The notes beneath the pieces are model-generated. The model was given only the letters and a program-made list of their open reading frames with translations, was not told the origin of the DNA and made no database searches. Of a stretch of 64,000 nucleotides of DNA, positions 9,718 to 43,640 are shown piece after piece. Within the stretch, counting starts at the first letter, position 1. Every line of letters starts with the position of its first letter. Source of the DNA: Anadara kagoshimensis (Eukaryota; Mollusca; Bivalvia; Arcoida; Arcidae); NCBI GenBank assembly GCA_021292105.1, contig CM037861.1:31977674-32041673 (forward strand), written 5' to 3'. A program made the position numbers and the translations under genes.

Positions 9718-9765
9718 AGCACTACTAATGTGGAATTGTATTTTCCGAAACGGCCTTCTAGTGCT
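9718..9765 (+). ncRNA. Type I hammerhead ribozyme, copy A (core mutated)
   Basis: Stem I strands AGCACTA and TAGTGCT are exact complements. The first core strand reads CTAATGTG instead of CTGATGAG. Stem II is GGAA...TTCC. The GAAAC strand is intact. The cleavage-side triplet is TTC rather than GTC. The core changes at conserved positions predict an inactive ribozyme. Confidence 0.8.
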
Positions 9766-9799
9766 GTAAAATTAAATTGGTATAATATGTAATATTTTG

Positions 9800-11845
9800 T
9801 CACTTTTTTCACTTTCATACAAGGGTTTCTGTCTATTTTATGCTTTCTTTCGGTTGTAAAATATTTGATCTCGCATTATGTTCTCCCGGATGTTTGATGA
9901 TCCAGAAACACCTTTCTCGTAACTTACAGTAAATCGTTTCAGTTCTTACAGGAAAGAGTCTCAATCAAGAAAATGCCTGACAGAATCATTGTTTCACAAA
10001 TAATAAAATGTTTGCAAAGAATAAGCAAGAAAGTGTCTTAATAATAATAATATATGATCTTGTTTCAGTGATGTAACAAGAAATGAATGCATTCTTACGT
10101 GAAATTGATGCGCGTGGCTTAATGGCGACATTTGTAGTTGAAATTAACACAGTTTACCTGGAATAGTAACACGTTTCGGTCGGACAGTAAAACTGAAACA
10201 GTCATAGTGTGGCTCTTTTTTTAAAAGCAAGAAACAAGAATAATACAATGCTATTCTATCCAAATATATACAAAATATTTCAAATAGGAAGGTTCCGTAC
10301 GGGATCATATTTTCTGAAACATATGTTCGACGGTATCATTATATTCTTATATATTTTGATACCTTGTAAATGAGAATATAATCTTAACAAAAGCTTAAAA
10401 AAACAATGTGAATGCAATCAAATGTTAACTACTAAATTAGTTTTAATTTTAAAGTGAAGTAATTTTGTCCTGTAGTGTCGCAACATAAAACCGACCATGT
10501 TGTGGGAAAAAAATGTTCAGAAAAATTCGATACCAAACTTATAGGCAATTGCGCAATTGAGATTCTCGTAATCTGCATCATTTTTACAAAACCATTGCTG
10601 TAATATAAAACGTAAGTAACAGCAAGTAATTTGACACTTCATGTGTGGGTTTTTCCTTGGATCACAGGGTATAATGGTTTTAACTTCTGAAAATTGATTA
10701 AAATATGATATGAGAAATTTTCGCCCACAATATTGTATATGATTTCAACTGTAATGAGTTTAATTTATATGCAATCTAAGTTGCAAATGTGTCATTTGAA
10801 ACTTACTACAAAAAAAATTCAACAAGAACTTTCTCTTGAGAGCTAAATCTCCTTGCTCCAATTAAGATTTGACATAGGGATTATAATTTTTGTGACCTAC
10901 TAACGTAAATGTCGCACATGTCATACCGTCACATGATGATATACGTTTGTGCAAAGTTTGATTACAATACACACATAGATGTGATAGGTAGGAATCGGAC
11001 GAGATTTCATACAGACATTTTTCCTATATACTCACTAAAACTTAGTTCGTCGCGAGAAGAATGAAAAGTAACGATAATGCCTTTTACAGCTTGTTTAATT
11101 TTTGAAGCATCAGATGACCGTTTGGGAATTAAATTACTCATTAGTAGTGGTAAAAAAAATGTGTAAATCCTAAAAAAATTAAAATGTTGAAATAAGAAAA
11201 AATAGAAGGGCCAATTTGAAAAATTACCAAAACCACCTAATACAAAAATTTAAATAATTACACTTTGTTTTGATAATTTTGAAAATTTAAGAAACAGCTA
11301 ATTATAGTTTAGAGGCGTTGATTTATGATGATCTTATTCAAATTTTTGTCCTTTTTAAATGCATAAATAATCAGAAGGTTTGCATAAAAAAGAAATTCTG
11401 GAAGATGTCAAATGTGTGATTAAAACATGTTAGTTTATGCTATTAGTTTCCACATCGGCTTTTATTACACCAAATGGCTCTATAATTCTAAATCCAATAT
11501 TTATTATGTTCTGATAAAAGCATTCTGTTAGTTTATAGAAATGTCTTCCGTTATGTAATTAAGTAGAAATTCATTTATTATGATTTATTTGTTAGCACTT
11601 GATGCAAAAAAAGTGTAATCCTTGCATATCTCCATACCATACTTTTTCTGTGCACTCATTTCTCATTTCTCTCAAACGGAAACAATGTTATAATATAAAA
11701 GGAAGGAGTATGACAGGTTGGGTCAAATGCATTCACCGGTGCAATCAAAACCTCACAATCTTAAGTTCTATTGGATATGGGTATCTAAGCATATATTGGC
11801 GGAATCGACTTAAAACTAATATCTATAGACGCTTATCATAGGTAT
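9800..11845. other. AT-rich spacer, nothing recognised
   Basis: Two kilobases without a recognisable gene or repeat. An 80-codon frame at 11599-11841 abuts the retroelement cluster but matches no part of the reverse transcriptase and has no other support. Confidence 0.45.
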
Positions 11846-12052
11846 AACAGTTAATACGCTATAGTAGAGTTTGTTCCCACTACAGGAACTTTATACAACG
11901 AAGCAAGCTGCTTACAAATAAATTGTTGAATCAGGGATATTGCAACCCTAGACTTATCAGCGCCCTCAAAAAGTTGGTGGCCGTCATTATAGTATTGTTG
12001 TGAAGTATGATGTCTCTGTTTGTAGGATTGAAATGGATATATTTATCTCATG
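11846..12052 (+). mobile_element. Penelope-like tail abutting the RT copy upstream
   Basis: An eroded copy of the RT thumb region (TTAATACGCTATAGTAGAG through GAAATGGATATATTTATC) ends exactly where the RT palm region of the next copy begins. It is in the same orientation. Such partial head-to-tail copies upstream are typical of Penelope-like elements (pseudo-LTR arrangement). Here it could instead be an independent truncated insertion. Confidence 0.75.
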
Positions 12053-12937
12053 TAAAATGTATAAAAACATTTGATTTTTCTACACTATACACCACAATCC
12101 CTCATTCTAAATTGAAAGAACGTCTTAAAGAAATTATTCACTTGTCTTTCTTCTACAAAAACGGTAAGCCAAGATACAAATATCTGGTGCTGAACAGGGA
12201 TTCTGGTTATTTTGTCAAGCACCATACGGATTCCAAACAAAATATACTGAAGATTCCATCAACAAAATGTTGGAGTTTTTGATAGATAACATATTTGTTG
12301 TGTTTGGTAATATAGTTTTTCAGCAAACAATCGGTATACCAATGGGTACAAACTGTGCACCATTGCTTGCTGATTTGTTTCTTTATTCTTACGAAGCAGA
12401 ATTTATGCAGAACCTTGTTAAATCTGGAGAGAAAACTGTCGCCAAATCATTCAACTCAACATACAGATATATAGATGACGTTCTGTCTCTTAACAATCCT
12501 AAATTTGGAGACTATGTAAATGTCATCTATCGTGAGCTTGAAATAAAAGACACGACTGATTCCTCAAGTTCTGCTTCATATTTAGACTTATACCTGAATT
12601 ATGACGCACAGGAAAGGCTACATTTGAAACTTTATGACAAACGTGATGACTTCAATTTTTCTATTGTCAACTTTCCTTTTTATGCAGCAATATACCTGCT
12701 TCTCCTGCTTATGGTGTATTTGTTTCCCAATTAATACGCTATGGTAGAGCTTGTTCCCACTACGGGGACTTTGTACAACGAAGTAGGCTGCTTGCAAATA
12801 AATTGTTGACTCAGGGATATTGCAAGCCTAGGCTTATCAAGGCCCTCAAAAAGTTTTATGGCCGTCATCACATTATTGTTGATAAATTTGATGTCTCTGT
12901 GTCCAGGATTGCCTTTGATATATTTGACGTCTCATAG
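12053..12937 (+). pseudogene. Penelope-like reverse transcriptase, frameshifted
   Basis: Encodes most of a retroelement reverse transcriptase, which would copy element RNA into DNA. Motif A is visible as FDFSTLYTTIP (12081-12113), followed by NGKPRYKYLVL and YFVKHH. After a frameshift near 12255, the next frame (12267-12734) carries GIPMGTNCAPLLADLF at residues 23-38 and the catalytic YIDD at residues 68-71, then LEIKDTTD, SYLDLYLN and YDKRDDFNFSIVNFPF. A one-base loss near 12680 shifts the frame again; the thumb region continues to a stop at 12935-12937. The N-terminus is missing, and no GIY-YIG endonuclease follows. The PMGTNCAPL and YDKRDDFNF blocks match a reverse transcriptase family common in bivalves, corals and fish that I assign to Penelope-like elements from memory. 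RT assignment is firm, family assignment less so. The two frameshifts mean it is not functional. Confidence 0.85.
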
Positions 12938-13131
12938 TTCCATGTTCCTTTCACACAATTTTGATTACACACGTGGCGGGTGTAGCTAGCTAACCAGGAG
13001 GTGCTTACCCTTCCGGAGCACCCGGCCTCACTTCCCTGGTGGAAGTTCACGTGTCTAACCTAACTTGTCAGTTCCAATGTTTTTACTTTGCTTCTGGATT
13101 GTGATTCGGAAATGGATTAGTATGTTTGTTT
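12938..13131 (+). mobile_element. 3' UTR of the 12-kb Penelope-like copy
   Basis: Best-preserved 3' UTR in the window. It contains GTGGCGGGTGTAGCTAGCTA, a potential hairpin GGTGCT(11 nt)AGCACC, CCCTGGTGGAAG, TCAGTTCCAA and the T-rich terminus TATGTTTGTTTTTGAT. There is no poly(A) tail. It is followed directly by another tail copy. Confidence 0.85.
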
Positions 13132-13345
13132 TTGATATATTTGACGTCCTATAGTTCCATGTTTCTTTCACTTTATTTTAATTACACACATGGCGGTTGT
13201 ATGTATCTAAACAAGAGGTATTTGTTATTCTGAAGCACCCGGCCTCATTTCCCTGGTGGAAGTTCATGTGTTTCACCTAATGTGTAAGTTTCAAAGTGTT
13301 TACTTTGCTTCTCGGACATGGATTAGTTTGGTTTTTATTTTCTGT
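13129..13345 (+). mobile_element. Penelope-like 3' tail, tandem with the RT copy
   Basis: Starts at GATATATTTGACGTCC, immediately at the end of the preceding copy, so the two are head to tail with almost no gap. It covers the whole 3' UTR (ATGGCGGTTGT, AAGCACCCGGCC, CCCTGGTGGAAG, CGGACATGGATTAG). Confidence 0.85.
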
Positions 13346-14065
13346 CTCTTGAACGAACGAAAACAATATTAAAAATGACGCCCATGTCAAAGAAAGAGTT
13401 TGATCCAGCAGAAATTATTTTACCGTCTCGACACTAGTTTTACTTTTAGCGTAAGGTCATAATTAGAGAAAGCAACATAAGTTGTTGCAAACTCAAATAT
13501 GGAATATGTTTAAAATGACTTTTGTGTTTCGGAAAATTATTATAAATATATTTATTATTACTCTCTGGGCATCATTCAAGCAATCGAGAACCATCTAGCG
13601 ATGGCGAATGCGTACTTACGTAATCACTTGCGCAATCATTCACTGTTGAACGATATGTTTACTGACTGTTGATCGGACCTCAGAATTCAGCTTAGATCAT
13701 TCAATCAATGTATGTAAAACAAAAAAATATATATCTTCTAAATGAACTGAATAACTGTCGAAGAATACATAAGTATTGGTATCACATGATAGCTGATATA
13801 CCAGACTAATTAAACATACATTAATGGAATACTTTCCTCTTATCCAGCATTAAATCACTGTGGTGATCGTAAACTTTATGATTTAGCCAGAAACAGTCGA
13901 GATAATTGCGAATATATAGTCATAAACGGCTTCTGGCACATTCCAAGACACCTACTTGGACAACGAATGACATTAAAATTACTCCTCACAAACGTATTAG
14001 ATAGGAAAATCTAGTCGCTTCTGACAAGTTTAAGACGTTTAGTAGGTGAATTAATGAATATATAA
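13346..14065. other. AT-rich spacer, nothing recognised
   Basis: No supported feature. Confidence 0.5.
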
Positions 14066-14215
14066 TACGTAGCGGGTAAAGGTCGCTAAAGAGGAGGCGC
14101 TTTCCTTCCGGAGCACCCGACCTCACTTCCCTGGTGGAGATTCGCGTGTTTAACTTAATTTGTCTTTTACTTTGCTTCTGGATTGTGATTTAGACATAGA
14201 TTAGTATGTGTTTCT
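14066..14215 (+). mobile_element. Penelope-like 3' tail, copy 9
   Basis: A 3' UTR fragment: CTTCCGGAGCACCCGACC, CCCTGGTGGAGATTC, and the T-rich end with TAGACATAGATTAGTATG. The coding part is absent. Confidence 0.8.
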
Positions 14216-14454
14216 ATTTTATATATGTCATAAAGCTACTACTCTTAAGCTTCTTAAATACAATCATGACACTTTTACTTAGACAATGAATAACATGTCA
14301 TAAACGTCTTATCCAAATAGAGTATTTACTCACACGAACAACTGACTATCATGATCATTGCAACATCACAAACAAAACAAAACACTCTTTAAAGGCGAAC
14401 AGAAACATGCATTTAAAATACACTTTTACTTTCTCTTGTCATAGTTTAATATTA

Positions 14455-14625
14455 TATCGGTGTTAATTTACAGCACTAAACGGTTGTTTCGGAATAAATT
14501 CCTCATGGGAAGTGCTTAGACCAAAATTGTGAAACCAAAATTTATTGAATGGATTGAAAAATATCCAAAAATATATTTAAATAAAAGAAGTTGCTGAGGG
14601 TATCAACTAGAATATGCTCTTGCCG
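14455..14625 (-). mobile_element. HHR unit B, partial
   Basis: Minus-strand ribozyme followed by the unit's typical flank (CAAAATTGTGAAACCAAAAT, then AAAATATATTTAAAT). The match fades beyond about 14625. Confidence 0.7.
14472..14516 (-). ncRNA. Type I hammerhead ribozyme, copy B (core mutated)
   Basis: Read on the minus strand, stem II GGAA...TTCC and the CGAAAC strand are intact. The first core strand is CCATGAGG instead of CTGATGAG and one stem I strand has substitutions. It is likely inactive. Confidence 0.75.
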
Positions 14626-16540
14626 TTTCTTTAAGGGTGTTTCACTTATTTTCAAGTGTAAAACGTATTTAAATAATAACAGAAGGTACTTTTGTACATT
14701 TATTTGAACCAGGGTTAAATTAGCCAGCAACCGTTGTGCTGCTGAATAATTGTAAGAAACAAACCAAACGGCAACATTGGCCAATAACAAAAGCCAAACT
14801 GACCCACATTCTGCTGCAAAAATTTGAGAACAGAAATAAAATAAAGATGTTTTTATCAGCTCTATTCTAACCTTGACAATTCTTGAATAATATTTTTCTC
14901 TAAACATAAAAAACTAGTGTAATATATCTCAATAATAACGTTGTAACACGATCGCCGCCACAATAATCAATCGTTTTTAGCCGGAAAAACTATATTAATG
15001 TCGGGTATTAACCAAGCAATTAATTTAATTTGTTTTGGGAAATGTCTGAAGGCTTAATATCATTTAAAAAGGTAACATAAACGTTTATGAAGTAATCAAA
15101 AATGACGTTTTATAATTCGTAAATTTCCCGTGAGTAAAAGACAATGATGAAATGAAAGACATTTAACACTGATGGGATAAAATTTATTGAATGATGATGA
15201 AACTGTAAATTAATTTAAATAGTCCTTTGATAATTCGTACATTTTAAATTTCAAATTGTGTTTCACGATCAAATATATTAAGGCACGATTTAGGTAATGA
15301 TGTAAATGTCGTATCTATGTTTGATATGATACTCATCAAAGTTCAACATTCCACCTCCATAATTTATTCTATAATGCGACCGGGTAAAACTCTTCCAAAT
15401 GTCAGGGTTTTTTTGTATTAATTTTTGGTGTGTCAGTGCTATAGCTGATCCAATAACTTTTTCCCCTTCATTAGCGGTCTTTTTTAGTTTTATGATTAGA
15501 CAAGTTATTAAACTTTCAGTCTTAAGTTTTTAAGGCGTTTTGTCAAAGCTAAGGACTCAACCAAAAATATTTTGATATTTACTGTAAAAGTAATTTTAAG
15601 CCCCCATCAATGTTGTTCATTTATTTGATTTGGTGCCATACAACCCGTTGCTTGTTCTTGAATCGTTCTTGCCTTGCACAAGTTTTTTTATTTATTCAGA
15701 TTTATTCAGAAACAAGAAACTATTTTTAATATTAATATTTATCATATGCTTACAATGTTGCTAAAATTGCAGAATTGGGACATATTTAAATATTGAAAAC
15801 GTCGTAGTTATTGACCAGATGGACATCTTCAATCTAAATGGTTATTGTGGGGCATATGGTCGTTTCAGTTGCCTGTAATTCTTCTCGAAAGACAACTTGA
15901 AACTTAGAACCAAAGACAGATATTCTGTGCTGTGGCAATTGGTATACACTCATTAAGCCTTTAATATGATTCTTTGCACTAAGGGCACTTTTAAGCCGTT
16001 AAGAAATTAAAACATTGGTTAACCTATATCTTGAATAAAACTAATGCACGCAACAATCTGAGTATTTTTAATTTCTTCATACCTCTTGAAATAAGTTACA
16101 ATTCTTCTATCAACGTACCTAGTTAAACTAAAAACGTTTCTAAATGATTAATAACTAATCGGGCTAAGGTTCTTGTCACATTCCCTAAAAATAATTATTT
16201 TGGATTTTAATTAAAACAAATACTATACATCACTGTCTAAGTAAATCAATTTGCGTTCATTTAAGAAGGCTTTATCATCACTTTGAGGATCGGAGAAAAT
16301 CCTGATATTCAATCCATCTAATGGAATGCATATATATTTATAGGACAATTTTCTATCATTATCCAGAATGAGCTATTGGAGTGGACGTATCACCAGGTTT
16401 ATATAAGCCTTTTAATCAATGATCACAATTTGTTTTATCTAGTTGTTTTATATTTTCAATTTAATTTACATAATTAGCGGCCTTTCAAGAAGTTTTGGTG
16501 CAGACTTCATAATTTTAACGAATATTTTACCAAATTTTAC
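14626..16540. other. AT-rich spacer, nothing recognised
   Basis: A 121-codon minus-strand frame (14542-14907) overlaps the end of HHR unit B. It shows no recognisable domain and is best treated as chance. Nothing else is supported. Confidence 0.4.
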
Positions 16541-16549
16541 CCATATGGC

Positions 16550-17190
16550 ACTACAGATTGGAATGTCAAGATCTGCCTGTTAAATTCCATTATCATAAAC
16601 GTACAGACTATCTTTGACCGGAATAGGATATAAATGGCGTATGGTTCATTTCCTCTGTTATAGTTGGAATGTCAAAATCTGTTTGTAAAATTCCATGATG
16701 ATAGAAGTACAGACTATCTTTGACCGGAATAAGATATGAATGACTGACGTATGGTTCATTTTCTCTGTTATAGGACACTTTTAACAAAAATGAAAAAAAA
16801 AACCTTTGGACTCAGCCAATGCTCTGCTCTTGTTTAATTATTGCTTTGCAAGTCTCATATGGCACCTCAGGTTGGAATGTCAAGATCTGTTTGTAAAATT
16901 CCATAATGATAGTAGTACAAACTATCTTTGACCCGAATAGGATATGAATGACTGACGTATGGTTAATTTCTTTTGAAGGTTACTTTAAACAAAAATTAAA
17001 TGACATTGGAATCGGCAAATCTTTTGCTCTTGTTTAGTTATTTGTTTGCAGGTCCTTTATTATACTACAGGTTTGAATGTCAAGATCTGTTTGTAAAATT
17101 CCATGATGATAAAGCTACAGACTATCTTTGACCGGAATAGGATATAAATGGCGTATAGTTCATTTCCGCTGCTATAGTTGGTTCCAATAT
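16550..17190. repeat. Irregular tandem repeat, ~106/200-bp units
   Basis: Four copies of a block (GGAATGTCAAGATCTG ... GACTATCTTTGACCGGAATA ... GACGTATGGTTCAT) with anchors at 16606, 16712, 16920 and 17120. The last two intervals are about 200 bp because they carry an extra segment with TTTGCTCTTGTTTAGTTA. This is a local duplication of unknown origin. Confidence 0.85.
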
Positions 17191-17304
17191 TAATAGACAT
17201 ATACAAGATATTGTTGGAGACAGATGACCCTAATTGAAATAGAAGTCACGGGTCTGATGAAGATGGATACTGACTAAAACCATCACTTAATTAATCATAT
17301 ACAA

Positions 17305-17468: not shown

Positions 17469-17624
17469 AACCCAAACGGTTATGATTTATTAAAAATAAT
17501 CTCTAAACTAAAATACCATTACAATAGAGATTCTAAAGAGAGGAAAACACGACGGAGGTAGTTTAAAACCTTTCAAGTCTTGCACGTCTATTGCTAGTAA
17601 AAAGGTATCGAGAGGTAGATGGCA

Positions 17625-17815
17625 TGAATTTAAAACTAAAAAAAAACTAAGGTAAACTCCCTCATGCAAATTATTGCCTTTGCTGAATTTGGTTAAATAT
17701 ATTTTGGTCCTTCGGATATTTTTTCAACCCCTTAAATAATTTTTTGTTTCACAATTTTGTTCCAAGCACTACTGATGAGGGATTGTAAATAAACAATTGT
17801 ACAATATGTAATTTA
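17625..17815 (+). mobile_element. HHR unit C, ribozyme half deleted
   Basis: Carries the unit's upstream block (ACTAAGGTAAACTCCCTCAT, GGTTAAATATATTTTGGTCC, TTTCACAATTTTGTTCCAAG), the first ribozyme half (AGCACTACTGATGAGG) and the downstream TACAATATGTAAT. The stretch with GAAAC and the second stem I strand is deleted. The 5' end of the unit is not visible. Confidence 0.75.
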
Positions 17816-17829
17816 AATCATGGATTTCC

Positions 17830-21337: not shown

Positions 21338-21715
21338 AAATAAATCATGGTAGAGCTTGTTCCCACTTCGGGGACTTTGTACAACGAAGTAGGCTGCTTG
21401 CAAATAAATTGTTGACTCCGGGATATTGCAAGCCTAGGCTTATCAAGACCCTCAAAAAGTGTTATTGCCGTCATCACAGTATTGTTGATAAGTTTGATGT
21501 CTCTGTGTCCAGGATTGCCCTGGATATATTTGACGTGTCATAGTTCCATGTTCCTTTCACACAATTTTGATTACAATCGTGGCGGGTGTAGCTAGCTAAA
21601 CAGGAAGTGCTTACCCTTCCGGAGCACCCGGCTTAACCTAACTTGTCAGTTCCAAAGTTTTTACTTTGCTTCTGGATTGTGATTCGGACATGGATTAGTA
21701 TGTTTGTTTTTGTTT
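21338..21715 (+). mobile_element. Penelope-like RT C-terminus plus 3' tail, copy 13
   Basis: Retains an open RT thumb region (to the stop at 21541-21543): HGRACSHFGDFVQRSRLLAN, then KKCYCRHHSIVDKFDVSVSR and a terminal DIFDVS, a frame of about 70 codons. It is followed by the 3' UTR, which lacks about 35 bp after CACCCGGC. It ends in TATGTTTGTTTTTGTTT. Upstream RT motifs are absent, so this is a 5'-truncated copy. Confidence 0.85.
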
Positions 21716-23690: not shown

Positions 23691-24057
23691 AATTATTTGA
23701 TGTTAAAGAAATCATTTTAATAAAAGCAGATAAAACTAATAAAACTGCCCGTCCCTGAAAATTCTGATTAGTAAGTTCAACGAGATCCATTCACTGCAGT
23801 TAATTAGCTGAAGACTTGATTAATCTGTATAAGTCATTGAGGAAAACACTGGTACTCACTATCTCAATAAGGTTCATGGTTTACGATTAAATTAAAAGAA
23901 TGTCTTCAGTAATATCTTGTCATTCTGTACACAGTATGATCAATATATGAACTCATTAATGCAAAAAATTAATGAAACGGTAAATTCCGTTTTGGAGAAG
24001 AATCATTACTTCCTTACTTTTCATTCCTCTGTATCCAATATTATTCTGGGTATATTT

Positions 24058-24130
24058 ATTACTAAACCTGCTTTAACTTACAGCATTAGACGGTTGTTTT
24101 TGAATAAAATTTCTCATCAGTAGCGCTAAA
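24058..24130 (-). mobile_element. HHR unit D, mostly ribozyme
   Basis: Only the ribozyme and ~20 bp of its 3' flank (minus strand) can be matched to the family. It is followed closely by an RT tail. Confidence 0.65.
24082..24127 (-). ncRNA. Type I hammerhead ribozyme, copy D
   Basis: On the minus strand the first core strand CTGATGAG is intact and the GTC cleavage triplet is kept. The second core strand reads AAAAC instead of GAAAC, and stem I and stem II carry substitutions. Loss of the G of GAAA predicts inactivity. Confidence 0.75.
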
Positions 24131-24149
24131 AACTTCGAAGCTGACATAA

Positions 24150-24290
24150 TAGGCTAAACACGTGAGCTTAAGCTTACATGTACACAAGGGAAGTAAGGTC
24201 GGGTGCTTCGAAAGGGAGATTCCTCCTCCTGTCTAGCTAGCAAGCTACACCCGCCACGTGTGTAATCAAAATTGAGTGAAATTAAAAAAT
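24150..24290 (-). mobile_element. Penelope-like 3' tail, copy 16
   Basis: Reverse-strand tail: ACACAAGGGAAGTAAGGTCG, GGTGCTTCGAAAGG, CTAGCTAGCAAGCTACACCC, GCCACGTGTGTAATC. It is divergent from copy 17. Confidence 0.8.
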
Positions 24291-25640: not shown

Positions 25641-25965
25641 AGGTAATGATTACATATTATACCAGTTTTAATTTTACAGCACTAGACGGCCGTTTCGGAA
25701 TACAATTCCTCATAAGTAGTGCTTAGACCAAAATTATTTAGAAGATATTGAAAAGCTACCCAAAGGACCAAAATATATTTTATCAAATTAAGCTAAGGAA
25801 ATACTTTGCATGGGGGAGTATACCTTAGTTTTTGAGAAATTTCAAATTTTAACTTGCAGGAAATTTAGACAATTATAGTATATTTGTGACAATAACACGA
25901 AATTATTGCCTACTGAGTTTGTGATAATAAAAGAGTCGCAGCTCGGCTAACAAGTGACCACGGTT
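25640..25965 (-). mobile_element. HHR unit E, near full length
   Basis: About 325 bp on the minus strand from TTATCACAAACTCAGTAGGC through GTCTAAATTTCC, AACTAAGGTATACTCCCCCA and the ribozyme to TATAATATGTAATCATTACC. No ORF. One of the best units for defining the family length. Confidence 0.8.
25678..25723 (-). ncRNA. Type I hammerhead ribozyme, copy E
   Basis: Stem I (AGCACTA/TAGTGCT) and stem II (GGAATTGTATTCC) are perfect. GAAAC and the CGGCCG short stem III with GTC are intact. The single departure is CTTATGAG for CTGATGAG: one substitution in the conserved core, probably inactivating. Confidence 0.85.
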
Positions 25966-26639: not shown

Positions 26640-26805
26640 ACTTGATAGGTTAAGATGTGGTTAAATATATTTATATCCTCTATATTTTTTTCATTTCAGC
26701 ATCTTAATAATATTTGGATTACCAAACTTTTAGTCCAAGAACAACTGATGAAGAATTTAATCTGAAATGGCCATCTAGTACTGCAAAATTAAAACATGTT
26801 TAGTA
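26640..26805 (+). mobile_element. HHR unit I, older partial copy
   Basis: GGTTAAATATATTTATATCC, TTCATTTCAGCATCTTAATA and the ribozyme followed by GCAAAATTAAAACATG align with the family. It is more diverged than the other copies, so it is probably old. Confidence 0.7.
26738..26782 (+). ncRNA. Type I hammerhead ribozyme, copy I (core intact)
   Basis: The core strands CTGATGA and GAAA and the cleavage triplet ATC are all present. Relative to the family consensus, stem II closes with A-U instead of G-C and stem III with U-A instead of C-G, so both closing pairs are preserved by paired changes. Stem I has two mismatches. It may have residual activity. Confidence 0.75.
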
Positions 26806-28125
26806 ATAAATATTTGCACTAACAAACAGTATATGATTCTTGTTAAACTGTATCACTGAAATCTCAGATTCCCAAATTTGTGTCCGGACAAGGGATATCA
26901 GCATAAAACGATGTTCATTACCGTAGTTAAAATACTGTGGTTGAGTCCTACTATCAGGGTCGGTCTGTTTGTGACAGTGAATTACACTTTTTATTTCCAC
27001 ATAAAATCAAATGTACTTGAATAAACATATATATTTTTCACTTACTTGTAACTAGCCATTACAAGATACCTGTATGCGCATCCGCGATTAGCATATAATA
27101 TATCTACACAGAGTAAAACTTTGGCGCTATGGGGACTTGACATGTTGAAAAACCAGGCAAATAACGGATGAAGTTGCTCATATGACGTAAAACGTTTAAG
27201 AATATGACTTTTAGTGTAAACATCGACATTTTTGTCATTTAAATTCCTCATAGCGCTAACATTTTCCTTTCGACAGAAACACTTTAAGACAATCGCGGAT
27301 ACACATACAGATATTCGGTTACGACTAGGTTAAAGTAAGTAAGCAATATCAACCCTAATTCCATTTTATTAGATTTTGTATGGAAATTGAGGATATTTCA
27401 ATGCTAGAAACACACTAAATTTCATCGTAACTATTCAAATAATTTTACAACCAGTGATCTCTAAAATTTACATTTTAATATGTAAATAAATCATAATTAA
27501 CCAAAATAAACCAAGTACCAGACATGAATATTATATAAAAAAACCCACAAATTTATAAACACATCAATTTTATTTAGTGAAATATTTTATTAAAGAATTT
27601 TTTTGGACCAAATATTTCGAATACCGGTTACATAATCGATACTGTAAAAATATTCTTGTCATTAAATTTAAAATCTAAAAATAGACAATAGGTTATGTGA
27701 AAGACTACTGGCACAGCTGGTGTCAAACTTGCACCTTTTCTTATATTATTTATCTGTTTAAGCAAAGGTACGTGTAGTTAATTTTCACTCTTTTTTGTAA
27801 TACGTGTCCTAAATATTTATATAATTCTGTCTCTTGTTTGGCCGGTTTCACAATTATTTCTTAACCAAGACTTTCCTCAACTCAAATCTAGCAAATTTAA
27901 AATCTGAAAAACTTTGTTAGTTTCCAAGATTTTCATTAATTTGTGATGTCATTTTGAAGATCTCTCTAAGCTAATGACATCTTTATTCTAATTTTCTTAA
28001 AACTTTTTATTTGTATTACGATAAACCGTTGGTTTTAAATACATTTGAAATGATATATAAGACTATTAAAAATTAAGATTGTTACTTACTTTAAAAAACT
28101 ACTATGGCACGGAACAAAATTGAAA
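26806..28125. other. AT-rich spacer, nothing recognised
   Basis: Two short minus-strand frames (66 and 69 codons, 26800-27251) show no recognisable domain. Confidence 0.4.
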
Positions 28126-29060: not shown

Positions 29061-29204
29061 TACCTCACGCTTTGCTAGAATAAGAAATAACTATTTTGAT
29101 ACCATTTGTTGTGAAATAGTTATATTGGAATTTATGCCTTACTATAGTCTCAATATCAACATAATGTTTTTTGTTAGTCTAGTGTCTTTCTAAAACAATT
29201 ATAT

Positions 29205-29525
29205 TTCTGCTGGTAGATGCTTCCCCGAGGATATCGCAAACCCAGTAGGTAATATTTATGTATTATTGTCAGAAAATATACTGTTGTCTAAATTTTCTGC
29301 TGATAAAATTTGAAATTTCTAAGGTATGCTCCTTCATGCAAAGTATTTCCTTAGCTAAATTTAGTAAAATATATTTTGGTACTTTAGGAATCTATTCAAC
29401 ATCTTAAAAACAAAATTTTGGCTTCACAATTTTGGTTCGAGCTCTACTGATGAGAAATTGTCTTCCGAAAAAGCCGTCTAGTGCGGTGAAATTAAAGCCT
29501 GTTTAATATGTAACATACAGTAAAG
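29205..29525 (+). mobile_element. HHR unit F, near full length
   Basis: Runs from GCTGGTAGATGCTTCCCCGA and AACCCAGTAGGTAAT through TATTGTCAGAAAATATACTG, TATGCTCCTTCATGCAAAG and the ribozyme to TTAATATGTAACAT. It is uninterrupted and so serves as the reference for the split unit A. No ORF. Confidence 0.8.
29440..29486 (+). ncRNA. Type I hammerhead ribozyme, copy F (core intact)
   Basis: CTGATGAG, CGAAA and the GTC cleavage triplet are all intact. Stem II has one mismatch. Stem I strands AGCTCTA and TAGTGCG have two mismatches. Stem III is very short, as in the rest of the family. Confidence 0.8.
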
Positions 29526-33109: not shown

Positions 33110-33475
33110 TTTAGCTTAGTGTTAATCAAAAACAAGCATACTAATCTATGTCCGAATCACAATCCAGAAGCAAAAAAAAACTTTGGAACCGATAAGTTAA
33201 GTAAGACAAGTGAACTTCCACGAGGGAAGTGAGCCCGGGTGCTCCGGAAGGGTAAGCACATCCTCTTTAGCTAGCTACACCCGCCACGTGTGTAATCAAA
33301 ATTGTGTGAAAGGAACATGGAACTATGGGACATCAAATATATCCAGTGCAATTCTGGACACATAGACATTAAACTTACCACAATACTGTGATAATGGCCA
33401 TAACACTTTTTGAGGGCCTTGATAAGCCTAAACTTGCAGTATCCCTGGGTAAACAATTTATTTGCAAGCAGTTTT
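33110..33475 (-). mobile_element. Penelope-like RT C-terminus plus 3' tail, copy 19
   Basis: Reverse-strand copy with a complete 3' UTR (TTAATCAAAAACAAGCATAC at its end, GTGCTCCGGAAGGGTAAGC, CCGCCACGTGTGTAATC) and the RT thumb region back to GGGTAAACAATTTATTTGC. The thumb is frameshifted. Confidence 0.85.
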
Positions 33476-35730: not shown

Positions 35731-35731
35731 C

Positions 35732-36100: not shown

Positions 36101-36275
36101 GGTGATGTCATTATTATGTCTCTGTGTCCAATTTTTTTCTTTTTTGACGTCCTATACTTCCTTATTACTTTTATTCTCAATTTCCATTTCACATATCGCG
36201 GGTGAAGCAGGAGATGCTTCTCTTATTTTGCTTTGGTCTTTGAGGATTGTAATTAATCATGGACCAGTATGTTTG
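36095..36275 (+). mobile_element. Penelope-like 3' tail, copy 22
   Basis: Follows the 59-bp array: ATGTCTCTGTGTCC, TTTGACGTCCTATACTTCC, CGGGTGAAGCAGGAGATGC, and ATGGACCAGTATGTTTG. Its middle (CCGGAGCACC region) is deleted. Confidence 0.7.
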
Positions 36276-36280
36276 GCGGC

Positions 36281-36330
36281 TGACGACGACGTCGACGACG
36301 ACGACGATGATGATGATGATGATGATTGAT
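36281..36330. repeat. (GAC/GAT)n trinucleotide repeat
   Basis: About sixteen GAC/GAT triplets directly follow the RT tail end. It produces a poly-Asp end on a chance frame. Confidence 0.95.
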
Positions 36331-36334
36331 AATG

Positions 36335-37440
36335 ATGATTTAAATAAAACTAATGTTCACTGACCAAGTGAAAGGATATTTTACAATTCTCGTGAAAATG
36401 TTGTGCGGAAATAATCAAAACAGAGACAAGTCGTAATTACAAATTTTAAAAAATGTCAACACTTTCAAGCAATTTGTATATAATAATCAAACAGGTTTTT
36501 TTATACTAAGGCTAGTTTATCCCTTACAACAATTATCGAAGTCTCTTCTCTACGTGTTTTATTATACAAATGGATTCCAATGCAGATATCGCAAATGAAA
36601 CGGTTGGGGAAATCCAAACAATGCCTATATTACACTGTGTAAAAGCTCCTGGTTGATTGACAATTGAATCAGATTTTTAAACAAATTAAAACATAAGAGT
36701 CATATACCTACGGTGACTATTCACATAAAACAGCATCCTATGATTATATTTCATTATATTTCATATTTGATTCTGAGACACGTAACGGTACAGCGGTCAA
36801 ACAATATACAAGGTGTAAGGAACGTATTTCTTCGAAGTACACGTGTACCTAGAATGCACTTGTACATTTATCAAGCTACATGATTGGTATAACTTTTAAT
36901 GGACTACCTTTTGGACCTAATATTTTCAGAATAATTGACTTCTAAAAATTCTTTGTATACCTATAGACTATGCGGTCTACACAAGACATTGTGACGTCAT
37001 ATTAATGTGTGACGTAGCACACGATAATTACATACAATGTCAAGGTATTGCAAGTACTATAGCACAAGTCTACATATGTTGTTACATTATTAATACATTA
37101 TATGTTAATCTTATGTATAATATCTCTAAATATAAGCTTGAAGGGCATAATATTAAATGATTATCAATAATAGGTGTGAATTTTAAAATTGTTATGTTGC
37201 ATATTTGAATTTATTTCTTTTAAGGTACGTTTTTTCATCGAGTTGGGCTTTTGGATTTTATTTTTCAATGCAAAAATACTTAATAGGATCTTCTTTATCT
37301 GTTACATTTTGTTTCATAGAACGGTTAGTTGGTTGAGTGTTGCTTATCGTCGCATCAACAATTTTTTCAGCAATTAGCGACGACAACTATTTTATCTCTA
37401 TGGATTAATTTATGAACAATTATGTGTATGCATGTGAAAT
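36335..37440. other. AT-rich spacer, nothing recognised
   Basis: Only short frames without recognisable domains. Confidence 0.45.
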
Positions 37441-37444
37441 GCGT

Positions 37445-37690
37445 GTTGTATGGTTTGTCTTGTACTAGCGCGTACTCAGGGCGACTTTAAGGGTGCTAGC
37501 TCATCGAGTACGCCACAGACAAGCGTACCACTTCCCCAGGCCATTATACTGATACCAGGTTAGCCAGTAAAGGCCAACGGCAAGGAAAATTCACTTTCCC
37601 ACATGTGGTTTGAGCGGGACCCGAACTCACAACGGTGAGAGACCCTGGATTTGTAGACTGACGCCCTATCAATTAGGCCACCGCGGCATC
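37445..37690 (-). mobile_element. tRNA-Arg-like SINE, family 2
   Basis: On the minus strand the head shows an A-box (GGCCTAATTGATAGGGCGTC) and a B-box-like GTGAGTTCGGGTCCCGC. The body contains GTGGGAAAGTGAATTTTCC and GGCCTTTACTGGCTAACC. The copy at 61105 is in the other orientation. Confidence 0.75.
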
Positions 37691-37715
37691 TTATGTTCTA
37701 TAGGATAGGTGTGAC

Positions 37716-37743
37716 GATAAAGTGCTAGGTCACGTACAGAAGG
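37716..37743. repeat. Direct repeat flanking RT fragment, left
   Basis: GATAAAGTGCTAGGTCACGT is repeated, with a few differences, at about 38328 (GATAAAGTGGCAGGTCACAT). Confidence 0.7.
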
Positions 37744-37779
37744 AATAAAAAAAACAAACTCACTAATCCCTGTCCTAGC

Positions 37780-38310
37780 TTCGGCTTGCAATATCCTTGA
37801 GTAAACAATTTATTTGCAATTAGCCTGCTTCGTTGTACAAAGTTCCTGTAGTGGAAACAAGCTCTACCAAAGTGTATTAATTAGGAAACAAATACATCAT
37901 AAGCAGGAGTCATCACATTTGTGTGCGTCATAATTCATATATAGGTCTCAATATGGAACAGAACAGAGGAATCAGTCGTGTCTTTTATTTCAAGCTCACT
38001 GGGATAGATGACATTCAGATAGTCTCCAAATTTAGGATTGTTAAGAGAGAGAACGTCATCTATATATGTTGAGTTGAATGATTTGGCGACAGTCTTCTCT
38101 CCAGATTTGACAAGGTTCTGCATAAATTCTGCTTCATAAGAATAAAGAAACAAATCAGCAATCAATGGTGCACAGTTTGTACCCATCGGTATACCAATTT
38201 TTTGCTGAAAAACTCTATTCCCAAACACAACAAATATGTTAGTTATCAAAAACTCCACCATTTTGTTGATGGTATCTTCAGTTTATTTTTGTTTGGAATC
38301 CGTATGATGC
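37780..38310 (-). pseudogene. Penelope-like reverse transcriptase fragment
   Basis: A minus-strand frame (37935-38261, 108 codons) covers VEFLITNIFVVFGN, IGIPMGTNCAPLIADLFLY, the catalytic YIDD (with a two-residue loss just before it: STYIDD rather than STYRYIDD) and LEIKDTTDSS. It then breaks; a deletion joins it to the thumb region (GTACAACGAAGCAGGC-type sequence near 37830) and the copy stops without a 3' UTR. Upstream it begins at YFVKHHTD. Motif A is missing. It is thus a fragment lacking both ends, flanked by near-identical ~25-bp direct repeats. Catalytic residues aside, it cannot be active. Confidence 0.85.
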
Positions 38311-38326
38311 TTGACAAAATAAATAA

Positions 38327-38354
38327 ATGATAAAGTGGCAGGTCACATACAGAT
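38327..38354. repeat. Direct repeat flanking RT fragment, right
   Basis: See 37716-37743. It lies about 20 bp beyond the 5' end of the RT fragment. Confidence 0.7.
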
Positions 38355-38434
38355 GACCTTGAACTCAAAAGAATCAATCCAATATTCTTTATAAATGTTG
38401 ATAGAACACGAAATATCAATGAACTTCCCAACAG

Positions 38435-38760
38435 ATCTAATTATATTCTATAATAATCGAGTTAAAAATATAATAAAATAAAAACATAAATTTTAAAGTA
38501 AAAGAAAAATAGCGTGTTGGAAACTACTATCTTTTTTATCTTTTTATTTTGCTTCTAGTCATACAATGTTGTAACAGCTGTCAGATTGTGACAGACGCCC
38601 TTAAAACACTAATGTCTCCTTCTATGAATATCTTTATTGTATCAAGCCAATTTTAATTAATTTTTAATTTTCAGCATGGAACAGGTATTACGTCAAACAT
38701 GATAAGTCAAAGTCGGGCGATTTTGAAAAATTTATTTGTTTCAAACATCACAATTTAAAA
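38435..38760. other. AT-rich spacer
   Basis: No supported feature. A short (GAC)n(GAA)n run lies at 38762-38785. Confidence 0.45.
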
Positions 38761-39017
38761 AGACGACGACGACGAAGAAGAAGAAACAAATAATAAGTTT
38801 ATATCAACTTGTACGTAAAATAACCAAATATGCTAAGAAGATGATTAATTTTGAACAATTAAGTTGTTTTAATCATGATAATTTTAAAAATAATTTATAT
38901 TTACCTTATACCATAAACGTCAAATGTGCTAAAAAGCTGAGCGATTTTAAACAATTTATTTTTTCCATCATCATGGTTTAAAAAAATCATTAGCTTATAT
39001 CAACCTACACGTGAAAT

Positions 39018-39350
39018 AGGCTTGTATGATTACATTATACCAGTTTTATTTTTTAAGCACTAGACAGCTTTGAAATACAATTCCTCATCGGTAGTGCTTG
39101 GACCAAAATTGTGAAACCAGAACTTTTCATCGATATGTTGAAAAGAAACCTAGAGTACCAAAATATATTTTACCAAAGTTAGCCTAGGACATATGTGCAT
39201 GAGGTAGAATACCTAAGTATTTGAGGAATTTTTAAATTTTAACTAGCGGCAAATTTAGACAATAGTATTTCTGAAAATAATACACTATAATGGCCTACTG
39301 GGGTTGTGATATCCTTAGGGCAACAGCCACCAGCACAGATACCGACTCAG
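39018..39350 (-). mobile_element. HHR unit G, inserted in a tandem array
   Basis: About 330 bp on the minus strand, from CTGTGCTGGTGGCTGTTGCC and AACCCCAGTAGGCC through GTATTCTACCTCATGCACAT and the ribozyme to TATAATGTAATCATACAAG. The array flanks define its ends better than any other copy. No ORF. Confidence 0.8.
39056..39098 (-). ncRNA. Type I hammerhead ribozyme, copy G (damaged)
   Basis: Stem I strands (AGCACTA/TAGTGCT) are perfect. The first core strand reads CCGATGAG and the GAAAC strand is damaged by a small deletion (TTTCAAAGC). It is inactive by inspection. Confidence 0.75.
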
Positions 39351-39743
39351 TGAAATTGTTTCAATCATCATGGTTTAAACAATTATTAGCTTATATCAGC
39401 ATATACGTCAAATATGCTTAGAAACTGAACCATTTTGTGCAATGAAAATGTATCAATCATCATGATTTCAAAACGAAAAAAAAAATTTATTAAGCTTTTA
39501 TACGCGTCTTCATAAAATTGATATCAGTATCCATTCCTCGACTTACATTGATTTTTTTAATTCATAATATACCTATAGTGTCGACGATCAACACATTTAT
39601 GTACACACTTGTGCGAGCGATTTGCTACAGGTAAAACACGAGTAATTAATTACAATGATCAGTATATCACCTGTAGATAAAATCCCTGTAACTCTTTATA
39701 AAAAGCATCATAAATATGTCAACAATAAATCTAGGACATATTA

Positions 39744-39965
39744 TAGGCAAACAATATTGACCTGTCTGCTTGACCTTAAATTTGAATATTTATTATAGAC
39801 CAGTACATCTAAGGGAACACGGTTGTTTATTTTATCTATCATGGGAAATATGTATTGTTATGTATTAATTGTGAATCCTAACGCTACCAATATATATATG
39901 TATGGATCACCGAATATGAATATATGAAAAAAAGGTCAAGCGGACAGGTCAATATTGTTTGTCTA
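39744..39965. mobile_element. MITE 'TAGGCAAAC' family, copy 2
   Basis: Inverted ends TAGGCAAACAATATTGACCT and the complement of AGGTCAATATTGTTTGTCTA. TA target duplications lie at 39742-39743 and 39966-39967. 222 bp, no ORF. Confidence 0.9.
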
Positions 39966-40121
39966 TACCTGACTGAGATCCAAGTTAATCTCTGGTACTC
40001 TCAGAAAAAAATTCGTCACAGCTTCGTACTAAAAGCTATTATGACGTACAAGTACAGGCCTGTCTGAAGTTTAACACTGAGCTAACGAAATTGATTGCTG
40101 AGTGGACGAAATGACTGGAAA

Positions 40122-40220
40122 GCTATCGGGAGTTACATAACAGCTGCCAAAAGCTGCCGGGAGTTACATAACAGCTGCCAAAAAGCTGCCGGGAGTTACA
40201 TAACAGCTGCCAAAAAGCTG
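40122..40220. repeat. 32-bp tandem repeat, three units
   Basis: GGGAGTTACATAACAGCTGC occurs three times at 31- and 32-bp spacing; each contains the palindromic CAGCTG. Confidence 0.95.
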
Positions 40221-40224
40221 TCGA

Positions 40225-41285
40225 GATAGAGGTAAAGAAAGGCCTAGATTAAATGTACATTTGGCACTAATTTGGCATTAAATTTTCGACAGACCTGATT
40301 CAGAGCATATTTTATCTCGACGGTGTGATTAATTAACAAGATCGCCTTTCGGCTTTATGAATACGCCAATTGAATCTGATATAGACAGGTTAATAAGAGG
40401 AATAATATTTTGACCTAATAAACGAAAAACTGAATATACTGTAATATTTCATATCAGTTTGTAACAATCAATTCCATTGGGCAATGAGCAGCCAAGTGGC
40501 ATAAACTGCTGGCGTGTATGTACAGAACGGATAATACACGACTTAACGTTGGACCGAGCAGGCATTACATTAGAGTCACGTTCCTTAAATGAAACGCCGC
40601 ATGATCATAATTAGATTTGGTTCAATAAAATAAAATACAAGCTTTAGTTACTTATGTACAAGGCACTAAGAAGATTTATGGAATTTTCGAGGACTATATC
40701 AAAATAACGGTCCACGTTCTATCAGTCGACCAGTCCATAAATCAGACTTTCTTCATAGTAATCTGTACAACAGTAACTATTGCTTAAATATAACATTGTA
40801 TGTATGATGTACCTAACAGAACAAGTGTCTTTTTCACTGCAGACTCTTAATCAGTCACCCTCTTCTCACCAAATACGCCGATTTAGCATGAATCTTCATG
40901 ATATAGACAGTTTAATAAGCAACATTAACCATTGGCCTCGTGAATGAAAAACCCGAATATATTACAATACAACATTGTTTAGGGTGTATATATACACTTA
41001 CCAGATTGTCACTGTTTCATCCCAGGTGCTCATTGGCCCCAACAGCCATCCTCCTCTCGCCTCGTCCATATAACTTTATGTCCAATCTAGAACTAACGGA
41101 CTCTTGATATAATTGTTGATATAATTGTTTCACAGTTAATCAGAATTGCTGGAAAATTTTACCGCATTGCTCATCTTGAATTGATAATAAAAACAATAAC
41201 AATGACTCGGGTATACGGTGGATAATAACGATGTTTTCAATACACAGATAATGATATCTGTAATGGGTACGATTTTCTTCGTCCT
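40225..41285. other. Spacer, nothing recognised
   Basis: Two related fragments (AATATACTGTAATATTTCAT region at 40430 and AATATATTACAATACAACAT at 40955, both after GATATAGACAG and CGAATTAACC-like sequence) hint at an old duplication. No gene is supported. Confidence 0.4.
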
Positions 41286-41290
41286 AGGTA

Positions 41291-41518
41291 TAGTGCGTCA
41301 AGTTTGACCTGGGCAATTGACCTTAAAGTTGAATATAAGATCGGACTTTGTGATTTAGGTAAGACAGCATGTTTCATTACCATAAACAATCGGTACCCAT
41401 TATTACTATCATCTGTCCTTAGATATCAACTTTATATAGCTTATAAATTACACAATGGACATGTTTGTTAAAATGTTCAAATGAAAGGTCAAACGGCCGG
41501 GTCAAACTTGACGGACTA
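41291..41518. mobile_element. MITE, variant-end subfamily
   Basis: 228 bp with ends TAGTGCGTCAAGTTTGACCT and the complement of GGTCAAACTTGACGGACTA, flanked by TA on each side. The inner half of the repeat (TTGACCTTAAAGTT/AAATGAAAGGTCAA) matches the TAGGCAAAC family, while the outer half differs. Confidence 0.85.
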
Positions 41519-41519
41519 T

Positions 41520-42065
41520 ATTTCTGTATATGTAGTGTGGAATCAATATTGTTCTTAAAGCCTTTGTCAAATAACATGGTTTCCTTAATTAAGTAACAAG
41601 ACACCGTGTTATTATTATTGGCCATATGTTTTTGTATTTTGTTTTCAATCTGTTCCATGTGTTCAAGTCTGTGTTTATCATATTTTTTGCTTCTTCGTGC
41701 GTCACAAATTTTGTCGATAATGTCCACAACAAGTACACGCAATTGACGACAAAGTAGAAAGTGTGGTAAGGCGTCTCAATGGTGTTCTTCCAGCGTTTAG
41801 CAAACAGCACGGCTTGGTTAGTTAAGCAACTAATTATATAACTAATGGTCAGTGTTTTACTCATTATCGTGTGCCATTTTTCCATTATATGTTTATCGTG
41901 TTTTTGCTTCTTCGTGTACGTCAAAATTTTTGTTGTGGTGTGTTTTCAATAGTTTGGCTTCTTTGATCAAGTACATACTATTGACAAACATGGTGACGGT
42001 ATGGTAAGGTGCCTCAATATTGTTATTTTAGCCTTTAGATATAAAAAAACACGGTGATACAGCAT
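41520..42065. repeat. ~220-bp irregular tandem repeat
   Basis: Blocks with TTGCTTCTTCGTG(C/T)(A)CGTCA, CAAGTACA and GGTAAGG(C/T)G(C/T)CTCAAT recur near 41690, 41910 and (after the RT tail) 42450. Two overlapping minus-strand frames (107 and 111 codons, 41419-41924) lie within. They have no recognisable domain and follow the repeat, so I do not call a gene. Confidence 0.65.
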
Positions 42066-42077
42066 TTTATATACTAG

Positions 42078-42385
42078 TAATCAAAAACAAACATACTAAT
42101 TCATGCCAGAAGGTTCATGCCCAAATCACAATCCAGAAGGTCTATGTCCAAATCACAATCTAGAAGGTCAATGTCCAAATCACAATTAGGAAGGTTCATG
42201 TCTAAATCACAATCCTGAAGTAAAATTGAAAACTTTGAAACTGAACATGTGAACTTCCACCAGGGACGTGAGGCTGTGTGCTCCTCAAAGGTAAGTACCT
42301 AGGCTAGCTACACTCACCACATGTAATCAAAATTGAGTGAAAGGAAGATGTAACAATGGGACGTCAAACATAGCCAGATCAAAGT
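42078..42385 (-). mobile_element. Penelope-like 3' tail, copy 24, with internal expansion
   Basis: Complete reverse-strand 3' UTR: TCAAAAACAAACATACTAAT, GTGCTCCTCAAAGGTAAG, GCTAGCTACACTCACC. It carries a 27-bp internal tandem expansion and interrupts the ~220-bp repeat. Confidence 0.85.
42110..42217. repeat. 27-bp tandem expansion within an RT tail
   Basis: Four 27-bp units (AAGGTTCATGCCCAAATCAC ... ) start at 42110, 42137, 42164 and 42191. Other tails have this segment once. Confidence 0.95.
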
Positions 42386-42439
42386 TTTTTCTTTTCTTAA
42401 AATCAGTATAATGTGTTATTTGTCCTTATATATATATGC

Positions 42440-42560
42440 TTATGATATTATTTGGTTCTTTGTACGTCATAAGTTTGTTGTATTTTTAATTAATGCTTTA
42501 CAAAGTACATGCCATTAATAAAAAGGAGTATAATTAGGTGCCCAAATAGTGATTGGACAA
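42440..42560. repeat. Continuation of the ~220-bp repeat
   Basis: TTTGTACGTCATAAGTTTG, TTTACAAAGTACATG and AGGTGCCCAAATAG match the units before the RT tail. Confidence 0.55.
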
Positions 42561-42789
42561 ATTTCCTTTGTTTTATCCCAAGACGAATAAAATCCACCAA
42601 AGAGCTGCAAAAGATATAACTTGGAACCTACCAAAGATAGCCCCGCATTCTTTATCACGCAAAGATTTAACGATGAAATCAGATTTTATGGTGTAAGAAA
42701 TTAGAACCAATCACTACTTGCAAGATAGAGAAAATTTCAACCCTCATTTTTATTCATTTAGTCAAGAAGTAGATTCGATCATATGAAGT

Positions 42790-42960
42790 TGACCTTTCAC
42801 CTACACACTTAAAGTGGCTTGCGACACATTATCTTAAATTCGTGCCACGTTTCATCAAAAATTAACGATTTATGTAAAAGTTATGACGCTGGCATGTTGA
42901 TGGACAGACAGACAGGTATGGGGATTTTTATTTATATCACTTCTATCAAAATAATTAAGC
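42790..42960. repeat. Interspersed repeat, 'GACAGACAGACAGG' type
   Basis: CGTGCCACGTTTCATCAAAA, AAAGTTATGAC and ATGGACAGACAGACAGG resemble 63470-63580. It is a common, poorly bounded repeat; the family is not identified. Confidence 0.45.
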
Positions 42961-43003
42961 AGGGGTTATTAATATAATAATTCGAGGTCTGTTTGTTTGT
43001 TGT

Positions 43004-43152
43004 TTAATTCCATCTCTCCTGGTGGAGAATTGTGCCAAATATATTACCTGTAAAGTTATCCCTATTACACGCTAGTGTGGCTTCCTCTCCCAATGTCTTC
43101 ATTCCTAGCTCTTTACTTTCCTTTTCTAATGTCCTACACCAGGCCTCCTTTG
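43004..43152 (-). pseudogene. Non-LTR retrotransposon ORF C-terminus (remnant)
   Basis: A minus-strand frame of about 49 codons ending at a stop (43004-43006) reads KEAWCRTLEKESKELG, then TLGEEATLACNRDNF and ILHQERWN. This matches the pattern at the very C-terminus of endonuclease/RT proteins of invertebrate LINEs (a WRRT-EKE ... W-E--- LA-DR--W pattern). Upstream the frame is closed by a stop and no RT core is visible. The assignment is from memory of the family pattern, hence moderate. The next element, HHR unit H, starts about 270 bp away. Confidence 0.5.
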
Positions 43153-43419
43153 CCTATTGGCTAATGTTTTTCAAGGATCATGCGGGATCATTTATGCTGG
43201 AGTGTATCTAGCAGGTCCTCGTCCATCTTTGTTATTCTCTAGGTTTCATGTCCGTACTGTATACAACTACTTTGGATTTGTAAATCTGCACTTTAGTTTG
43301 GTTACTATACAAATTGTTCTTCCACCCTGGTTTAAGATTGTTCTATTTGGAACGACAAGTAGTGATAGATTCTACTTATCTCGCCTAATCTTCTTTATTA
43401 TCTTTTTGCGGTCGTCTTG

Positions 43420-43640
43420 GATTTGAAATTTGAAATTCCTCAAAAACTAAGATATACTCCCTCATGCAAAGTATTTCCCTAGCTGATTTTTGTAAAATAT
43501 ATTTTGGTCCTTTGGGGTTTCTTTTAAACATCTTGAAAAAAATTTTGGTTTCATAATTTTGATCCAAGCACTACTGATGAGGAACTGATTCCGAAACGGC
43601 TGTCTAACGCTATAAAATTAAGACTGTTATAATATGTAAT
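43420..43640 (+). mobile_element. HHR unit H, 5'-truncated
   Basis: Begins at ATTTGAAATTTGAAATTCCT, continues with AACTAAGATATACTCCCTCA, TTTGTAAAATATATTTTGGT, TTTCATAATTTTGATCCAAG, the ribozyme, and TGTTATAATATGTAATTTG. About 110 bp of the unit's 5' part are missing. Confidence 0.85.
43567..43611 (+). ncRNA. Type I hammerhead ribozyme, copy H (core intact)
   Basis: Best-preserved ribozyme: CTGATGAG, stem II GGAACTGATTCC, GAAAC, short stem III C-GGCT-G, and cleavage triplet GTC are all intact. Stem II has GGAA/TTCC pairing. Stem I strands AGCACTA and TAACGCT carry two mismatches in the middle. It would be the first choice for an activity test. A self-cleaving RNA of this type processes multimeric transcripts of its element. 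Confidence 0.85.

Follow-up and report, generated by a model that had tools for sequence, protein, structure and literature searches.

A retrozyme-like hammerhead ribozyme repeat in the ark clam Anadara kagoshimensis and its insertion ends

Ribozyme copies in the window and their parent unit

A 64,000-nucleotide stretch of the ark clam Anadara kagoshimensis genome (assembly GCA_021292105.1, contig CM037861.1, positions 31,977,674 to 32,041,673; hereafter the window) carries ten copies of a hammerhead ribozyme (HHR) repeat. Nine of these sites had been proposed from the sequence alone (the original prediction) as a family of type I hammerheads with a short stem III, and we find them to be decayed, mostly 5'-truncated fragments of a 339-bp unit that survives intact elsewhere in the genome. 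We consider it likely that this unit represents a metazoan-type family of retrozymes lacking long terminal repeats (non-LTR retrozymes), copied from an internal start on circular or multimeric RNA.

The nine sites are homologous, as predicted. A covariance model (R1), trained on 36 genome copies that include five of them, finds all nine (E 1.2e-24 to 4.1e-5), four being outside the training set, and BLAST with the 339-bp unit recovers eight; the site at 26738 needed a shorter ribozyme query. Five sites lie on the plus strand and four on the minus strand, near the 3' side of a unit without an open reading frame (ORF), also as described. The parts said to be common to all nine sites are not: exact AGCACTA is present in five, CTGATGA in five, GAAAC in four, the 3' TAGTGCT in four and, by eye, GTC before the cleavage point in five, and no site has the complete set. 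None of the nine is an intact ribozyme, so the claim of a working family finds no support in the window, where all ten copies are old and dead.

The copy nearest to the unit (25653..25926, minus strand, 90% by BLAST) has a G to T change at position 3 of CTGATGA with its stems intact by eye. The sole copy with both core boxes (43423..43638, plus strand, BLAST) is 5'-truncated to unit positions 124-339 and has a broken stem I; at its site 43567, CTGATGAG and GAAAC stand at legal spacing, with two stem I mismatches by eye. Nearly full units with decayed HHRs lie at 29201..29512 (plus strand, unit 19-339) and at 39029..39350 (minus strand, unit 11-334, also found by the covariance model), each with 81% identity by BLAST, the latter between 65-bp direct repeats. 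Truncated copies with decayed HHRs occupy 9556..9791 (plus strand, unit 78-339, 79% identity, 103.7 bits with R1) and 14449..14549 (minus strand, unit 233-336, by BLAST and at 94.4 bits with R1), both in the training set. BLAST and the model also recover a copy at 17642..17809 (plus strand), which runs from unit 143 to 288 and then, by eye, through a deletion to the tail, its HHR broken inside stem II, and a short decayed copy with an HHR remnant at 24057..24153 (minus strand). The old HHR-region copy at 26706..26808 (plus strand), which whole-unit BLAST missed, scores 66.6 bits with R1, and a tenth old HHR-region copy, outside the original list, lies at 11079..11181 (minus strand, 36.3 bits, E 8.7e-5); both are outside the training set.

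The original prediction had also named Rfam as its arbiter, holding that a failure of the type I hammerhead model at every site would count against it. Rfam leaves all nine sites unscored, giving no match at gathering scores in the window and, at E<=10, 12 matches of which none is a hammerhead, yet we judge the test a bad one, since eight loci, seven of them with intact copies, also yield no match at E<=1. Because Rfam misses window sites and intact copies alike, we rejected it as arbiter.

The intact unit, taken from locus L009, is 339 bp long with 34% GC, and its longest frames when unrolled are 83 codons from stop to stop (minus strand) and 25 codons from an ATG. The proximal stem I (AGCACTA/TAGTGCT) is followed by an internal loop (GGTCCA//GTA) and a distal stem (AATTTT/AAAATT plus GTTT/AAAC) that extends it. 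The core boxes are CTGATGA and GAAA, stem II is GGAA/TTCC, and helix III is one C-G pair closing a palindromic GGCC; the cleavage point lies after GTC, 3' of unit position 304. This anatomy supports the prediction of a type I hammerhead with a short helix III in a retrozyme-like, ORF-less repeat of ~330 bp. In RNAfold of linear pieces, stem II pairs, as do both the proximal and the distal segment of stem I; folding of the whole circle retains stem II and the proximal segment and loses the distal stem. Since CGGCCG is self-complementary, two copies could pair through it; amphibian hammerhead motifs are reported to be active as dimers (PMC7229834).

Abundance, arrays and conservation in the genome

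Across the 1.115-Gb assembly (36 contigs), the exact 46-nt intact ribozyme occurs 2,030 times (1,070 + 960) against none for a reversed control. The looser core pattern CTGATGAG...GAAAC has 10,620 matches against 378 reversed, and is found once in the window, where 0.06 would be expected. Similar series of this pattern at ~2.31-2.35 Mb and 3.01-3.05 Mb of contig C1 possibly reflect a segmental or assembly duplication. We examined 345 kb, including loci L001-L028, which were chosen at core-motif places, and 200 kb in 20 stretches at fixed coordinates. Intact ribozymes account for 19 of the 64 HHR regions in the 345 kb, a set enriched by the motif-chosen loci. Model R1 gives 19 matches in the 200 kb (nine of the 20 stretches positive, L044 alone with five) and ten in the window, which scales up, with a wide error, to a family size on the order of 100,000.

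The tandem arrangement expected by the original prediction exists in the genome and is absent from the window, where BLAST with the 339-bp unit detects no tandem copies. Locus L009 (C1:310 kb) consists of five head-to-tail 339-bp units, 98.5-100% identical to the first and directly abutting, without an intervening ORF, and the exact head-to-tail junction GGTATAATATGTAATTTAAACCCC has 1,105 genome matches against none for the control. Among the first 100 matches listed, same-strand spacings are near-constant inside arrays and differ among arrays (for example 338/338/338, 341/340/340, 344/343/341, 368/354/352), as if each array derived from its own monomer. Eleven of 17 adjacent unit pairs could be scored for likeness, six overlapping too little, and in eight of them the neighbour ranks first or second among 56-69 units. 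The two units of L043 have 15 non-consensus letters in common; L009, being the reference, is unscorable in this comparison.

Conservation was compared in the window and the 200 kb that was not motif-picked, because choosing L001-L028 by the core motif inflates HHR conservation in the full set. Of 13 copies, 12 have an HHR better preserved than the adjoining spacer (+0.097, standard error 0.024); for the tail this holds in nine of 12.

Insertion ends, target sites and neighbouring repeats

We scored insertion ends on the 339-bp circle in three query phases, using matches of at least 80% identity, most of them in loci fetched by the ribozyme motif. The 3' ends fall within positions 333..6 of the circle in 39 of 49, 38 of 51 and 38 of 51 matches, whereas the cleavage site accounts for 0, 1 and 1; the 5' ends are scattered over the unit. 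The 3' end recurs in the window and the 200 kb that was not motif-picked, where it falls at unit 330-339 in 19 of 26 matches. The usual 3' end, ...CTGGTATAATATGTAA, is ~35 nt past the cut, and of the 21 units extending to position 12 or below, 17 follow immediately on the tail of another unit. Because the fixed end lies past an uncut cleavage site, circular or multimeric RNA is the likely template, and the ends suggest that reverse transcription starts within such uncut RNA.

Target-site duplication is weakly suggested by the flanks. Exact matches of at least 6 bp near both ends occur in seven of 32 insertions with usable flanks, against 1.9 expected from shuffled flanks, and six of the seven start with TT or ATT. 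A longer gapped comparison scores at least 10 at both ends in three of 44 insertions (L022, which lies in a tandem repeat, L011 with 14 bp, and window copy 39029-39350), against 0.03 expected. The last of these lies between direct repeats of 65 bp with 85% identity (38958-39023 and 39355-39419), which could have arisen as a long target-site duplication or could be two older repeats between which the copy inserted.

Other retroelements in the genome were considered as mobilisers. An abundant, mostly 5'-truncated retroelement lies at 12042-13136 of the window (plus strand), with reverse transcriptase (RT) motifs IGIPMGTNCAPLLADLFLYSYEAEF and YIDDVLSLNN and a weak RVT_1 match below cut-off; we take its RT to be Penelope-like. 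Relatives occupy 21347-21712, 33125-33471, 37777-38322, 48537-48838 and 56502-57037, and the family has a fixed 3' end of its own, ...TTTTTGATTA. We saw no hammerhead in this family by eye and rejected it as the mobiliser, given its different 3' tail and target duplications of at least 6 bp in one of 31 cases against 1.29 expected. Elements encoding GIY-YIG domains, found at 50 or more places, were set aside as well: pieces of two of them (L051 and L052) have no hammerhead, by pattern or by eye, and no similarity to the unit. The top GIY-YIG match in the assembly (L050, contig C22, ~287.8 kb) reads as a bacterial UvrC with TGA as tryptophan and adjoins an FtsK-like frame, both named by eye; C22 probably stems from a symbiont or contaminant of the Mollicutes.

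Further repeats in the window include a tandem array of a 41-bp unit at 45993-48164 (54 copies, C-rich on the plus strand), which explains a jump in GC skew at 46-48 kb. Near-perfect long hairpins at 9432-9552 and 44854-44921 have arms that look alike by eye (TTGAACTGAT...GTGAAATATTGTC...), resembling foldback elements or miniature inverted-repeat transposable elements, and match Rfam microRNA precursors below gathering scores. Elsewhere in the assembly, C4:4.488-4.538 Mb has several COX1 matches, with frames of up to 501 aa when TGA is read through, representing mitochondrial insertions or misjoined mitochondrial sequence. A COX1 from C4 has 88% identity to that of Tegillarca granosa, 90% to an unnamed protein and 81% to that of Barbatia decussata, which places the host among the Arcidae.

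Proposed copying of the unit and its relation to known elements

Internal initiation on circular or multimeric RNA can be set out as a series of steps, the first of which are borrowed from published retrozymes. Tandem units would be transcribed, and the type I hammerhead would cut the RNA into monomers of ~339 nt, probably with two copies paired through CGGCCG; a host ligase may then close the monomers into circles. A reverse transcriptase, primed on nicked and probably AT-rich DNA, would start at a set position ~35 nt downstream of the cleavage site, cross the uncut GTC|TAG junction and in some cases go round the circle more than once. Random stops would produce inserts that are truncated at the 5' end yet share one 3' end, as well as tandems of a partial and a full unit.

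Several results weigh against this account. Helix III is absent from both the linear and the circular RNAfold structures and part of the core pairs otherwise; minimum-energy folds often mispair hammerhead cores. The predicted stability of the circle does not exceed that of shuffled sequences (z -0.19), and we rejected a viroid-like rod on this ground; covariation is no higher than in shuffles, as expected for copies decaying from few sources. In the other three scored pairs of adjacent units the neighbour ranks lower in likeness: eighth in one pair, and at or just above the bottom in two older pairs (L011 and L005:137). Copies in L001-L028 without an exact core, a set biased against the core, have an HHR excess of +0.025 (standard error 0.043, six of nine positive). 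As to target sites, 25 of the 32 insertions have no flank match, six of the seven matches are only 6-8 bp long, and a 30-bp duplication at L022 was rejected when its wider flanks proved to be a ~34-bp tandem repeat. Finally, no other repeat in the 345 kb clearly shares the tail, save for a 20-nt partial match of 95% at L031:1158-1177, which has no recognisable ribozyme upstream.

Among the alternatives, the strongest takes a linear transcript, unprocessed and happening to end at the tail site, as the template, mobilised like a short interspersed nuclear element, with cleavage and circles irrelevant to transposition. The cleavage site is indeed uncut in the inserts, and HHR mutants of a Penelope-like element (PLE) of the anole still insert in vitro (PMC11167929). 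Against it, the insert end has no T run or poly(A) by eye, tandem inserts pass straight through the tail site, and the HHR exceeds the spacer in conservation among unselected copies, so we regard a linear template as unlikely.

A less probable alternative, which we doubt strongly, makes the repeats solo pseudo-long terminal repeats (pLTRs) of an autonomous PLE with a minimal hammerhead and not an independent retrozyme. PLEs likewise have partial tandems, type I HHRs and a start of reverse transcription inside the RNA (PMC11167929), and the ark clam genome abounds in PLE-like RTs and has at least 50 GIY-YIG places. However, array units adjoin with nothing between them, and stem I can be extended through an internal loop in the linear fold, unlike the minimal PLE motifs described in PMC7761336. 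The original grouping with PLEs also finds no support in the unit, which has no RT frame and matches three PLE-like stretches (L051, L052 and window 12042-13136), none of them HHR-bearing, only through short similarities at chance level. Least probable, and in our view very unlikely, is a satellite that spreads as DNA, by unequal exchange or re-insertion of extrachromosomal circular DNA, with the ribozyme as passenger; nearly homogeneous arrays, each with a period of its own (among the first 100 matches), and the rarity of clear target-site duplications would fit it, but the sampled stretches contain mainly single fragments in dispersed positions, and scattered 5' ends combined with a fixed 3' end are typical of retrotransposition.

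Copying as a retrozyme from circular or multimeric RNA thus remains the reading we prefer, and it agrees with the described features of metazoan non-LTR retrozymes in Mytilus galloprovincialis, Acropora and axolotl, which likewise have type I HHRs, AT-rich units of ~170-400 bp, dimers to multimers and a high copy number, reaching ~5,000 copies in mussel and 126,247 motifs in axolotl (PMC7229834). The axolotl HHR_Amex1 has the same single-pair helix III under a palindromic tetraloop. Other marks of the class are target-site duplications that exceed 4 bp where they occur, a lack of LTR, PBS and PPT, self-cleavage and unit-length circular RNA. The ark clam unit belongs to a different host family, and an insertion end ~35 nt past the cut is not described in the excerpts of PMC7229834. 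That paper also treats a satellite hammerhead of newts and salamanders with similar ~330-bp repeats and a very weak helix III, which acts as a dimer; the host is a vertebrate, and we liken the two by description only, claiming no shared descent.

The closest parallel for the insertion end is the Poseidon PLE of the green anole, which has an HHR near the start of reverse transcription and partial tandems, and whose RT initiates inside the RNA where there is no homology to the cut DNA (PMC11167929). There the start lies 111-118 nt into the ORF and the HHR cut at +26, hence ~85-92 nt past the cut compared with a probable ~35 nt in the ark clam. Cleavage of AT-rich DNA has been demonstrated for the anole PLE, whereas for the ark clam unit it is suggested by the flanks alone, and HHR-bearing PLEs encode an RT and usually GIY-YIG between their pLTRs whereas the unit has no ORF. 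Judging from the insertion ends, the fixed internal start in the ark clam would work like that of a PLE, which does not make the unit a PLE; LINEs (long interspersed nuclear elements) or PLEs are named among possible retrozyme helpers (PMC7229834). We further offer, as a possibility that we lean against, that the folded ribozyme docks the reverse transcriptase at a fixed site beyond the extended stem I, so that the HHR would be selected for template choice as well as cutting.

The element class is known; what is new is the ark clam family and the clue that its insertion ends give to copying. Titles and opening abstracts in the open-licence literature searched mention neither ark clam retrozymes nor a fixed retrozyme insertion end, and in a survey of bivalve transposons covering ark clams among others (PMC10294476) neither hammerhead nor retrozyme appears as a word in the main text. 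The literature consulted leaves open by what route, and with which enzyme, metazoan retrozymes re-enter the genome. With ~100,000 copies by extrapolation, at least 2,030 unmutated ribozymes and a 3' end common to most sampled copies, the ark clam family makes this question directly testable. If true, docking by the ribozyme would unite retrozymes and PLEs under a single copying mechanism independent of a 3' end.

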